From: a virus
Virus record (IMG/VR): IMGVR_UViG_3300025132_000288
Span: 1 to 24,321 of that record
Length of the DNA stretch: 24,321 nt
Reading direction: 5' to 3' (one strand)
Both the position numbers and the translations under genes were made by a program. Below, piece after piece: positions 2 to 9,275 of this stretch. Each line of letters starts with the position of its first letter. Position 1 is the first letter of the stretch. The notes below the pieces were generated by a model. The model ran no database searches and was not told where the DNA came from. It saw only the letters and a list, made by a program, of their open reading frames with translations.

Positions 2-658
2 GAAGCAGTTGAAGATAATCTATATGATAGTCTTTCAGCTCGTTATACTAAAGCTCTTGCTCGTTCAATGGCAAATACTAAGCAAGTTCGTGCAGCTAAT
101 GTTTTAAACAATGGCTTCAACGGTGCTTTCTTAGGTGGTGACAATCGTTCACTATTTGGTACAGCCGCTGGCGGTGCAGTTACTAATCACCCGTTGGTGA
201 GTGGTGGTACTAACAGTAATACACAAGCAACACCAACAGACCTTAACGAAACAGCATTAGAAAACGCAGTAATTCAAATTGCAGCGTGGACTGATGAAAG
301 AGGTCTATTGATTGCTGCTAAACCTCGCAAGATGGTAATTCCACCAGCTTTACAATTCGTTGCTACTCGTTTATTAGATACACAGCTGCGTACTGCAACT
401 GCTGATAACGACATCAATGCGTTAAGAACTAATGGTGCAATTCCAGAAGGTTATTCAGTAAATCACTTCTTAACAGATGGTGATGCTTACTTTTTAACAA
501 CTGACGTTCCTAACGGTATGAAGCATTTCGAAAGAACTGCTTTAACTACTTCTATGGACGGCGATTTCGACACAGGTAATGTAAGATACAAAGCCCGTGA
601 AAGATATTCATTCGGTTGGTCAGACCCACTAGGTATGTGGGGTTCACCAGGGGCATAA
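2..658 (+). CDS. Major capsid protein, C-terminal part (gene starts upstream)
   Basis: The frame is open from base 2, so this is the last 218 residues of a longer protein; an internal ATG at 68 is not the likely start. The segment has the look of an HK97-fold phage coat protein: a stretch on permitted values (KPRKMVIPPALQF) as in coat proteins solved by recombinant array, a domain ending in ERTALTTSMDGDFDTGN, and a C-terminus rich in aromatic and basic residues (VRYKARERYSFGWSDP). I recognise this C-terminal pattern from major capsid proteins of uncultured aquatic phages. It would form the icosahedral shell. The gene is followed directly by an intrinsic terminator, as expected for a very highly expressed coat gene. 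Capsid identity is fairly secure; the exact subfamily is not. Confidence 0.83.
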   Translation, partial: EAVEDNLYDSLSARYTKALARSMANTKQVRAANVLNNGFNGAFLGGDNRSLFGTAAGGAVTNHPLVSGGTNSNTQATPTDLNETALENAVIQIAAWTDERGLLIAAKPRKMVIPPALQFVATRLLDTQLRTATADNDINALRTNGAIPEGYSVNHFLTDGDAYFLTTDVPNGMKHFERTALTTSMDGDFDTGNVRYKARERYSFGWSDPLGMWGSPGA

Positions 659-670
659 TACCCCTTCCTG

Positions 671-707
671 AAAAACCCAGCTCCTCTCTGCTGGGTTTTT
701 CTTTTTT
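671..707 (+). terminator. Intrinsic terminator after the capsid gene
   Basis: AAAAACCCAG (671-680) pairs perfectly with CTGGGTTTTT (691-700) around a 10-nt pyrimidine-rich loop and is followed by C and six T residues. It lies 12 bp after the capsid stop codon and would end or attenuate the capsid transcript. Confidence 0.9.
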
Positions 708-723: not shown

Positions 724-1065
724 ATGCAATATTTAATCGACATGTTTGGAGTTAGCGTTGTATGCATAGTCGCGTCTGTTATTGGCGGCTTTTGTAATTA
801 TAATGTTAAAAAGAATAAAGGTTTGACACCTCGTGGTGGACATATAAAATGGGCTATAGAACGTAAACGTGCTCGTATAGAATTTTTACTTTCTGTATTT
901 ATAGCAGCTGTTTCAGCTGAGTTCTTTGTACCACCTATTGTTAATCAATTTGACCTTCATATAACATTTTCTCCTGCTATAGCATTTTTTATTGGATATA
1001 GTGGTATGCGCTTAATCCCAATGATGGAACGGAAAGTATCTCAAGCTCTTGATAAGTTGGGATAA
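724..1065 (+). CDS. LydA-like holin (holin superfamily III type), 3 TM segments
   Basis: This 113-residue membrane protein has hydrophobic segments at about residues 4-23, 52-73 and 82-100. A basic loop containing KKNKG and IERKRAR separates the first two. The second half, RIEFLLSVFIAAVSAEFF followed by a glycine-containing last segment IGYSGMRLIPMMER, matches my memory of the LydA/Phage_holin_3_3 pattern, in which the final segment ends in G-x-x-G-x-R. Such proteins permeabilise the inner membrane or regulate lysis timing. I chose ATG 724 because the frame upstream runs through the terminator. There is no usable Shine-Dalgarno spacing (AGG ends one base before the ATG), so a leaderless transcript from TATAAT 712-717 is possible. 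It shares a terminator-bounded unit with pqqA and is far from the main lysis pair at 15401-16339. Confidence 0.65.
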   Translation: MQYLIDMFGVSVVCIVASVIGGFCNYNVKKNKGLTPRGGHIKWAIERKRARIEFLLSVFIAAVSAEFFVPPIVNQFDLHITFSPAIAFFIGYSGMRLIPMMERKVSQALDKLG

Positions 1066-1077
1066 ACTCATGATTAT
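1049..1077 (+). promoter_or_regulatory. Candidate sigma70-type promoter for pqqA
   Basis: TTGATA (1049-1054, 5 of 6 matches to the -35 consensus) is followed after exactly 17 bp by GATTAT (1072-1077, 4 of 6). Transcription would start near 1084 and include the whole leader hairpin before pqqA. It overlaps the last codons of the holin gene. A second perfect TATAAT lies at 1105-1110 without a good -35 box; a start from it would remove part of the hairpin's 5' arm. Confidence 0.35.
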
Positions 1078-1109
1078 GCTTAGTGCATAACTATAACTGA
1101 AAGATATAA

Positions 1110-1149
1110 TTCCTTTATCAGCACCATGCTGAAATCTAAAATAAAGGAG
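1110..1149 (+). promoter_or_regulatory. Leader hairpin that hides the pqqA ribosome-binding site
   Basis: TCCTTTAT (1111-1118) is the exact complement of ATAAAGGA (1141-1148), which contains the Shine-Dalgarno core of pqqA. Directly inside it, CAGCA (1119-1123) pairs with TGCTG (1127-1131) around a CCA loop, leaving a 9-nt bulge AAATCTAAA on the 3' side. The 8-bp outer helix can add a G-U pair at 1110/1149. The arrangement resembles a translational on/off element, such as an RNA thermometer or a protein- or ligand-gated leader. Function is inference; the pairing is seen in the sequence. Confidence 0.5.
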
Positions 1150-1156
1150 ATTTATC

Positions 1157-1231
1157 ATGCAATGGACTACACCTCAAGTAACTGAAATGCGTTTTGGTTT
1201 TGAAATAACTATGTACGTAATGAACAAATAG
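1157..1231 (+). CDS. pqqA: PqqA, precursor peptide of pyrroloquinoline quinone (PQQ)
   Basis: This 24-residue ORF begins MQWTTP and continues RFGFEITMY before ending MNK. It fits the PqqA family in length (22-29 residues), in the N-terminal W-x-x-P, in the R-x-G-F/L-E core and in the invariant Glu-x-x-x-Tyr pair, here Glu16 and Tyr20. In PQQ synthesis the radical-SAM enzyme PqqE, with the chaperone PqqD, links these two side chains; the linked residues are then excised and processed by PqqB and PqqC. The pattern is closest, from memory, to beta-proteobacterial PqqA. AAGGAGA (1144-1150) lies six bases before the ATG, an excellent ribosome-binding site, but it is enclosed in a hairpin. No other pqq genes are present, so the peptide would depend on host enzymes. 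A strong terminator follows. A chance match of this quality is very unlikely. Confidence 0.88.
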   Translation: MQWTTPQVTEMRFGFEITMYVMNK

Positions 1232-1266: not shown

Positions 1267-1289
1267 AAAGGGACTTCGGTCCCTTTTTT
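1267..1289 (+). terminator. Intrinsic terminator with UUCG tetraloop after pqqA
   Basis: AAAGGGAC (1267-1274) and GTCCCTTT (1279-1286) form a perfect stem closed by the highly stable TTCG loop, with a T-run at 1284-1289. Flanking ACAACAAA (1256-1263) can extend the stem with TTTGTTGT (1287-1294) across a 3-nt bulge. It closes the holin-pqqA unit. Confidence 0.93.
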
Positions 1290-1293
1290 GTTG

Positions 1294-7847: not shown

Positions 7848-9275
7848 ATGACAGGTTTAATAGAGGGGATGGTTGGAAAAACCCCAGTAGTAAAAGTATC
7901 AAATGAAAGACCGATAGAAAAAGATTTATATAAAAAAATGTGGGAAATACCGGAATATAGAAAAGTTTCTCCCGGCGAAAAAATATCTCACATATTTTTA
8001 GAACAAGCTAAACCTAAAGCCGGGTCTAGTGTTATAGATTTAGGTTGTGGTACAGGACGTGGAGGATTAAACCTTGCATTTTTTGGAGGAATGGATGTAA
8101 CGTTGGTAGACTTTGCACCTAATTGTTTAGATGCAGATATAGTCCCAATGTTAGAAACACAAAAACATGTACTTAGATTTATAGAAGCAGATTTATCCGA
8201 ACCATTACCTGTTAAAGCAGCTTATGGTTATTGTACCGATGTGATGGAACATATTAGACCCCATCATGTGGATAAAGTATTAGATAATTGTTTAGATGCA
8301 GCACAACATGTATTTTTTGCTATTTCTACTGTAGATGATAAATTTGGGAAAGAAGTAGGACATAAATTACATTTAAGTGTTTTCCCTTATAAGTGGTGGT
8401 TAAAGAAGTTTAGAGATAGAAATTGTATTATTCATTGGTCAGAAGAACATGATGGCTCATGTTTATTTTATGTAAGTGCGTGGGTAGATGGAAAAGAAAT
8501 AGTTAATATTGGACAAGTAAATACAGACGCCGAAATACTAAAAGAAAATGTATCACATAACATTAAGCAAGGATTTTTACAGGTTCAACCTCATCCTACC
8601 AATGATTTAGAAGTTATGATAGTAGGAGGAGGACCTTCTTTAGAAGGACAGCTTGAAAAAATAAAGCAATTAAGGGCAAATGGTGTTAAACTTATAACTA
8701 TTAACGGTGCTTATAAATGGTGTATTGACAATGAGTTAACACCTTCAGCAATGGTAATGGTAGATGCACGTGAATTTAATGCTAGATTTGCTCAACCAGT
8801 AGTAGAAGATTGTAAATATTTTATAGCATCACAGTGTCATCCTAGTGTATTTAAAGATTTACCCAAAGATAGAACTTATATTTGGCATACACAGGCAGAA
8901 GAACATAATGAAGTATTAGCACAGCAATACGAAACTTGGCATCCAATACCAGGAGGCTCAACAGTTTTATTAAGAGCTATTCCTTTATTTAGAATGTTAG
9001 GTTTTAAACGGTTTCATCTATTTGGATGTGATTCATGTTTAGAAGAAAATAAGCATCACGCATATAAACAAACAGAAAATGATGGACAGTTAGTAGTTCC
9101 TGTAAACGTGGGCGGGAAAATATTTAACTGTAACCCTTGGATGGTATCCCAAGCTCAAGAATTTATCGACTTAATTAGAATGATGGGCGATGAAATGGAG
9201 TTAGAGATATATGGAGGGTTACTACGTCATATTTTAGAAACCGGTGCGTCATACACCGATATTAAGGAGATTTAA
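7848..9275 (+). CDS. Two-domain enzyme: SAM-dependent methyltransferase plus DUF115/MptE-like domain
   Basis: The 475-residue protein has an N-terminal class I methyltransferase domain with motif I SVIDLGCGTGRGG (residues 61-73), a following acidic strand end VTLVDFA (84-90) and motif IV-like CTDVMEHIRP (129-138). The C-terminal domain, from about residue 250, reads MIVGGGPSLEGQLEKIKQL (257-275), ITINGAYKW, then MVMVDAREF (302-310), YFIASQCHPSVF (324-335) and HLFGCDSCL (390-398). This is the pattern of DUF115/MptE-like proteins, nucleotide-sugar or pterin-related enzymes often found near glycan-modifying genes. It may modify a virion protein or surface glycan. AAAGGGAT precedes the ATG. Both domains look intact; the substrate is unknown. 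Confidence 0.8.
   Translation: MTGLIEGMVGKTPVVKVSNERPIEKDLYKKMWEIPEYRKVSPGEKISHIFLEQAKPKAGSSVIDLGCGTGRGGLNLAFFGGMDVTLVDFAPNCLDADIVPMLETQKHVLRFIEADLSEPLPVKAAYGYCTDVMEHIRPHHVDKVLDNCLDAAQHVFFAISTVDDKFGKEVGHKLHLSVFPYKWWLKKFRDRNCIIHWSEEHDGSCLFYVSAWVDGKEIVNIGQVNTDAEILKENVSHNIKQGFLQVQPHPTNDLEVMIVGGGPSLEGQLEKIKQLRANGVKLITINGAYKWCIDNELTPSAMVMVDAREFNARFAQPVVEDCKYFIASQCHPSVFKDLPKDRTYIWHTQAEEHNEVLAQQYETWHPIPGGSTVLLRAIPLFRMLGFKRFHLFGCDSCLEENKHHAYKQTENDGQLVVPVNVGGKIFNCNPWMVSQAQEFIDLIRMMGDEMELEIYGGLLRHILETGASYTDIKEI

Follow-up and report, generated by a model that had tools for sequence, protein, structure and literature searches.

Phage-borne pqqA as a probable substrate-only auxiliary metabolic gene in viruses of aquatic methylotrophs

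Introduction

Some phages retain a host gene that keeps the energy metabolism of the infected cell running, as cyanophages do with psbA, which maintains D1. Auxiliary genes of the psbA type encode enzymes or protein subunits, whereas the gene considered here encodes a peptide that is consumed as raw material for a cofactor. OM43/LD28 bacteria count among the chief consumers of methanol, a major one-carbon substrate in coastal seas and lakes. The window, which is the whole virus record of 24,321 bases that was analysed, contains a short ORF that the original prediction read as pqqA, the gene for the peptide precursor of PQQ. The locus raises the question of whether this ORF is PqqA, whether it belongs to the phage, and what a phage would gain from the substrate of a pathway without its enzymes.

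Identity of the ORF

The ORF and its ribosome site are as follows.

1157-1231, plus strand: pqqA, 24-aa PqqA with Glu16 and Tyr20 in E-x-x-x-Y spacing (profile scores, decoy comparison)
1145-1150, plus strand: Shine-Dalgarno AGGAGA, 6 nt before the ATG (sequence)

The ORF has 24 codons followed by TAG and translates to MQWTTPQVTEMRFGFEITMYVMNK. W-T-T-P is at residues 3-6 and RFGFEITMY is at residues 12-20, which include E16 and Y20, the residues joined by PqqE (numbering as in PMC10906245). TIGR02107 matches the ORF with 43.8 bits (E 1.5e-11, cut-off 20) and PF08042, the Pfam PqqA model, with 43.1 bits (E 3.8e-11, cut-off 21.1); both matches span the full length of the model. An HMM made exclusively from host PqqAs gives the ORF 58.3 bits; with the same HMM, 15.1 bits is the highest score among 113,995 ORFs from 3.1 Mb of reversed DNA. 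A chance origin of the score is excluded. Besides passing the curated cut-offs and having Glu and Tyr four apart, the ORF is free-standing, falls in the range of about 20-30 residues and has a ribosome site. No PDB chain matching the peptide was found. The ORF is almost certainly PqqA, the precursor peptide of PQQ. The original prediction, which relied on these motifs and on a strong Shine-Dalgarno and pointed to the Pfam and TIGR families as a check, is therefore borne out by a strong match to both.

It had also been claimed that the phage carries the substrate peptide without pqqB-E, and this holds as well. With Acinetobacter proteins as queries, no pqqB, C, D or E was found in 335 viral loci (2.83 Mb), many of them on fragmentary contigs, and PqqE was above the cut-off in none of the 27 longer virus records; the absence is strong but not absolute. 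In hosts, pqqB, C, D or E is beside pqqA in just 16-21 of 120 loci (retrieved DNA up to 8 kb). Since host pqqA mostly lacks these genes nearby too, a phage pqqA without them can still be PqqA, and such a neighbourhood is a usual feature, not an obligatory one.

The phage and its pqqA unit

The contig also encodes a capsid protein, an endolysin and other virion genes, which marks it as a virus genome and not host contamination. The phage setting that was first proposed is confirmed by these genes and by the presence of pqqA in cultured phages. The features around pqqA, all on the plus strand, are listed below.

2-658, plus strand: major capsid protein, truncated at the 5' end by the edge of the contig (PHROG major head protein)
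670-701, plus strand: intrinsic terminator after the capsid gene (terminator prediction)
724-1065, plus strand: small protein with a weak holin match (phrog_2359 holin, E 6.7e-5), the first gene between two terminators
1064-1112, plus strand: promoter-like block upstream of pqqA (from conservation; putative promoter)
1118-1132, plus strand: small hairpin TCAGCA-CCA-TGCTGA in the presumed 5' UTR (most relatives, with altered sequence)
1267-1292, plus strand: intrinsic terminator after pqqA, stem at 1267-1286 and then a T-rich tail (fold z-score -4.2)

The terminators at 670-701 and 1267-1286 flank the weak-holin gene (724-1065) plus pqqA, and the one 3' of pqqA is present in most relatives. The promoter-like block consists of AAACTCATGATTATGCTTAG (1064-1083) and ATATAATTC (1104-1112), with TATAAT at 1105-1110. 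It is kept in 6 aligned capsid-clade sequences, and the AAACTCATGATTATGCTTAG element occurs once in the window. The block looks like a promoter for pqqA alone, and pqqA sits in its own small predicted transcription unit. The hairpin was considered as a special conserved structure of the pqqA 5' UTR and rejected; it recurs, but phage and host leaders fold similarly on average. No Rfam family overlaps the pqqA unit convincingly.

The window capsid protein shares 50-64% identity with its counterparts in Synechococcus phage MinM2, Pelagibacter phages HTVC023P/027P and Roseobacter phages CRP-901/902, and none of the listed phage records that share this capsid is among the PqqA matches. In IMG/VR, relatives with capsids 77-95% identical have a Methylophilaceae-type pqqA downstream of the capsid gene, mostly within ~0.6 kb, and many contigs with capsids 69-76% identical have a RLGFE[VI]TMYF-type PqqA ~1.4-2.2 kb downstream of it. 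The capsid gene anchors the window pqqA in this phage lineage. Retrieval by capsid similarity gave 80 loci, with pqqA in six of the closest; the remaining loci have no pqqA in the available DNA, which is often short. One relative (L254, capsid 86%) is without the PqqA ORF and retains the flank, including a 22-nt stretch that matches the window pqqA exactly at its last codons and 3' flank, as would be expected after a loss of the gene. Since a close relative has this flank without the ORF, pqqA seems to be dispensable.

Hosts and host PqqA

The window PqqA resembles that of the Methylophilaceae in length, W-T-x-P start, E-M-R-F-G-F-E-[VI]-T-M-Y core, VMNK end and Shine-Dalgarno. It differs by an extra Gln at position 2 and by Ile17 where hosts have Val; the window gene is also in a viral genome, in single copy, with pqqB-E not nearby. 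The window pqqA DNA matches 149 of 150 Methylophilaceae genomes and is ~80-86% identical in the best places, and the match covers little beyond the ORF and ribosome site. From the PqqA type, the DNA similarity and the cultured methylophages that carry PqqA, we infer that the host belongs to the Methylophilaceae, in agreement with the aquatic methylotroph that had been predicted.

Methylophilaceae genomes have 1-12 copies of pqqA (17 genomes). Cultured members have been described with 3-12 pqqA copies and one set of the other pqq genes, bar one exception (PMC4109929). The availability of PqqA is reported to be rate-determining in Methylovorus MP688, in Ge 2015 as cited in PMC11317620. Some Methylophilaceae genomes (L021, L024, L072, L080, L086, L101) have a tandem second pqqA ~200 bp from the first. 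This second copy has a VCN[KR] ending, which is common to some phage copies.

Distribution among phages

A tblastn search over 50,697 phage records results in 12 PqqA matches. Nine of these are Methylophilales/Methylophilaceae phages and one is a metagenomic podovirus; the other two carry the label Acinetobacter phage. The nine are the cultured methylophages P19250A, MEP301, Venkman, MEP401/402 and four Melnitz variants; tblastn returned no other isolate phage with PqqA among the 50,697 records. The term "all methylophages" refers to all nine returned by tblastn. MEP431-434, Venkman EXVC038S, MG-MtP1 and RSA-MfP1 exist in the taxonomy, perhaps outside the collection searched, and are not among the PqqA matches, and HIM624-A is a partial genome. 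The nine have an intact PqqA, like the window; unlike it, they belong to other phage lineages, have pqqA at other genome positions and leave it unannotated, with no gene called at the locus or a hypothetical ORF called on the opposite strand.

Acinetobacter phage MD-2021a was rejected as a PqqA phage. The record that was opened (CAKLQF020000010.1, L008) is a bacterial chromosome where it was read, with mod, ent, ppk and a pqqA-pqqBCDE operon, and is apparently mislabelled. The second, smaller MD-2021a record is counted among the 12 matches by its label alone.

In IMG/VR, a pattern scan for the FGFE motif gives at least 120 stretches and a RLGFE scan gives 111, with PqqA-like short ORFs in 111/111. 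The total is more than 230 stretches with PqqA, from at least four phage lineages and with two PqqA types; the scans use degenerate DNA patterns, are not dereplicated and would miss very divergent PqqA. Most contigs fell together in a loose shared-gene network, and a stricter cut was adopted for grouping. The resulting groups are P19250A/MEP301/Venkman, MEP401/402, the Melnitz-like phages, the window lineage and others. The position of pqqA varies by group; in some it follows the capsid gene or closes a gene block, in others it is near recombination genes or beside tRNAs. Repeated gain of pqqA by phages is the simplest reading of this pattern. The second phage PqqA type is carried by L352-L462, including one 340-kb virus record.

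The original prediction called the gene one of an unusual kind, which, if taken as rare, does not stand: with nine cultured methylophages and more than 230 IMG/VR stretches, phage pqqA is evidently common. The prediction had left open whether phage pqqA is described elsewhere, and it is, once: a viral PqqA has been published for Lake Baikal VP_266 (PMC7678222). In addition, a 2026 paper counts viral pqqA, pqqD and pqqE as phosphorus-cycling genes of reservoir sediments (PMC13188868). Text term searches of the papers on Venkman, MEP301, MEP401/402 and Melnitz found no mention of PqqA as an auxiliary gene, and the readable marine OM43 phage papers report no methanol-oxidation or PQQ-synthesis gene. 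The generality of phage pqqA appears to be unreported in the open-licence PMC literature searched. In all nine methylophage records found, a 24-codon gene missed by standard gene callers would supply a link to methanol oxidation and PQQ.

Selection on phage pqqA

In the capsid clade, pN/pS is 0.22 for pqqA and 0.18 for the capsid gene; across phages it is 0.31 at positions outside the search pattern. The window pqqA is under purifying selection in its relatives. In a search that left the codons of Glu16 and Tyr20 free, 105/105 distinct phage sequences encode E and Y, and these two codons have synonymous changes only; the result applies to sequences that have the surrounding motif. Loss of this conservation in related phages would have counted against the original prediction, and both residues are invariant.

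These data bear on two other explanations. One is that host pqqA was captured without benefit, or that host DNA contaminates the virus contigs. The gene is tiny and was seemingly gained and lost, as in the relative that has the flank without the ORF. However, pqqA is in cultured phage genomes, recurs in at least four lineages and is under purifying selection. Arg12 is encoded by AGA in 32/114 phage copies and in 1/109 host copies; therefore the phage copies are long-term residents and not contamination. Incidental carriage is very unlikely.

The other is that phage PqqA is a decoy or competitor, which would occupy PqqD/PqqE, lower host PQQ, and shift metabolism or weaken competing functions. 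No enzymes accompany phage PqqA, and PqqA binds PqqD tightly in M. extorquens (Kd 0.39 uM, PMC10906245), so that an excess could compete. A blocker would not have to keep both of the cross-linked residues, yet 105/105 do so with no nonsynonymous change, which disfavours a decoy that cannot be processed; a fully functional substrate would add product and not block. Phages with their own methanol dehydrogenase also carry PqqA (3300025120_009955; VP_266, PMC7678222). A blocking role is improbable. On the sequence evidence, the window pqqA is a genuine, selected phage gene, and its predicted processable peptide is kept in many unrelated aquatic phages.

Proposed role in infection

The window pqqA lies within a virus genome, has a host homologue and is retained under selection, and it is quite probably a substrate-only auxiliary metabolic gene that feeds host PQQ synthesis. 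The phage would express PqqA strongly during infection, and host PqqD and PqqE would cross-link Glu16 to Tyr20 of the phage peptide. Host proteases and PqqB/PqqC would then complete PQQ. The extra PQQ may keep PQQ-dependent methanol dehydrogenase (XoxF/MxaF) supplied with cofactor, and virus production would then be powered by methanol oxidation. The peptide alone could suffice because one PqqA is consumed per PQQ, while the enzymes act as catalysts and stay in the cell. Methylophilaceae hosts, like the phages, multiply pqqA and not the enzyme genes. This suggests that phages supplement a component that limits host energy metabolism.

PqqA is found together with methanol oxidation genes in two T4-like viruses. 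The IMG/VR contig 3300025120_009955 encodes PqqA and a 624-aa XoxF methanol dehydrogenase, for which the best PDB match is XoxF 6oc5 (668 bits). It also encodes a formate-dehydrogenase-like protein (named from sequence), ribonucleotide reductase, a tail assembly chaperone and GroEL. On this contig (L478 5989-7863, 7943-10783), XoxF, the formate-dehydrogenase-like protein, curli-like genes and PqqA make up a small methylotrophy module. Lake Baikal VP_266, a predicted methylophage, has a methanol dehydrogenase plus PqqA, and its viral PqqA was proposed to raise PQQ for methanol oxidation (PMC7678222). The window has a viral PqqA as well; it differs from VP_266 in being of a podovirus-type lineage with PqqA alone in the available sequence.

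The absence of pqqB-E, the multicopy host pqqA, the reported rate-determining PqqA supply and the co-occurrence with XoxF, taken together, favour the feeding role. The original prediction offered two roles, and the processable copies and the XoxF-carrying PqqA phage favour feeding PQQ synthesis and make blocking it the less likely one. Some points stand against feeding. PQQ and methanol dehydrogenase are stable, and extra cofactor may have little effect within one lytic cycle. The close relative L254 does without the gene, and other relatives in the window lineage carry the second PqqA type (RLGFE); both also count against it.

The phage copy might instead maintain PqqA after host shut-off with no net rise in PQQ. 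The host-like sequence, the promoter-like block and terminator of its own, and the position downstream of the capsid gene in the window lineage are consistent with such a replacement. The sequence reads the same for a replacement and for a boost, however, and other methylophages place pqqA near recombination genes or tRNAs, so the timing is probably not uniformly late. Replacement of the supply is unlikely. Phage PqqA, or the PQQ derived from it, could also act in lanthanide handling or as a signal and not as a dehydrogenase cofactor. Orphan pqqA copies of M. extorquens respond to lanthanide form, and a part in the uptake of lanthanides has been tentatively suggested (PMC11317620). Nothing in the phages points there, and the co-occurrence with XoxF favours the cofactor, though XoxF is itself lanthanide-dependent; such a role is extremely unlikely.

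Beyond the window, feeding of PQQ synthesis by a host-matched pqqA alone is reasonably likely to be a general phage tactic. The gene is in at least four unrelated lineages, with probably at least two PQQ-making host groups; the enzymes are left to the host, and within the window lineage the two PqqA types are distributed as if the peptide were swapped on a change of host. Phage pqqA would be a different sort of auxiliary gene, one for a substrate and not an enzyme, and peptide-sized phage genes may be overlooked. Its presence in cultured methylophages makes it a testable question whether infection raises PQQ and methanol oxidation.

Other elements in the window

The window has two additional elements outside of the pqqA unit. 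The first, at 7848-9275, is a protein of 475 aa that matches methyltransferases weakly in its N-terminal part and has a long unassigned C-terminal part. The second is a predicted pseudoknotted RNA leader at 1327-1400 on the plus strand, between pqqA and the gene at 1407, with the invariant core ACTGCCCC[AG]GCAGACG and no convincing Rfam match. Its three helices are fully paired in 18/18 distinct sequences and covary, with CTGGG/CCCAG against CCGGG/CCCGG in one helix and CATACA/TGTATG against ATGCAA/TTGCAT and ATATAC/GTATAT in another. The helix of the CATACA/TGTATG type abuts the ribosome site of the next gene, and the leader may control the translation of a phage gene as an element that has no name yet.
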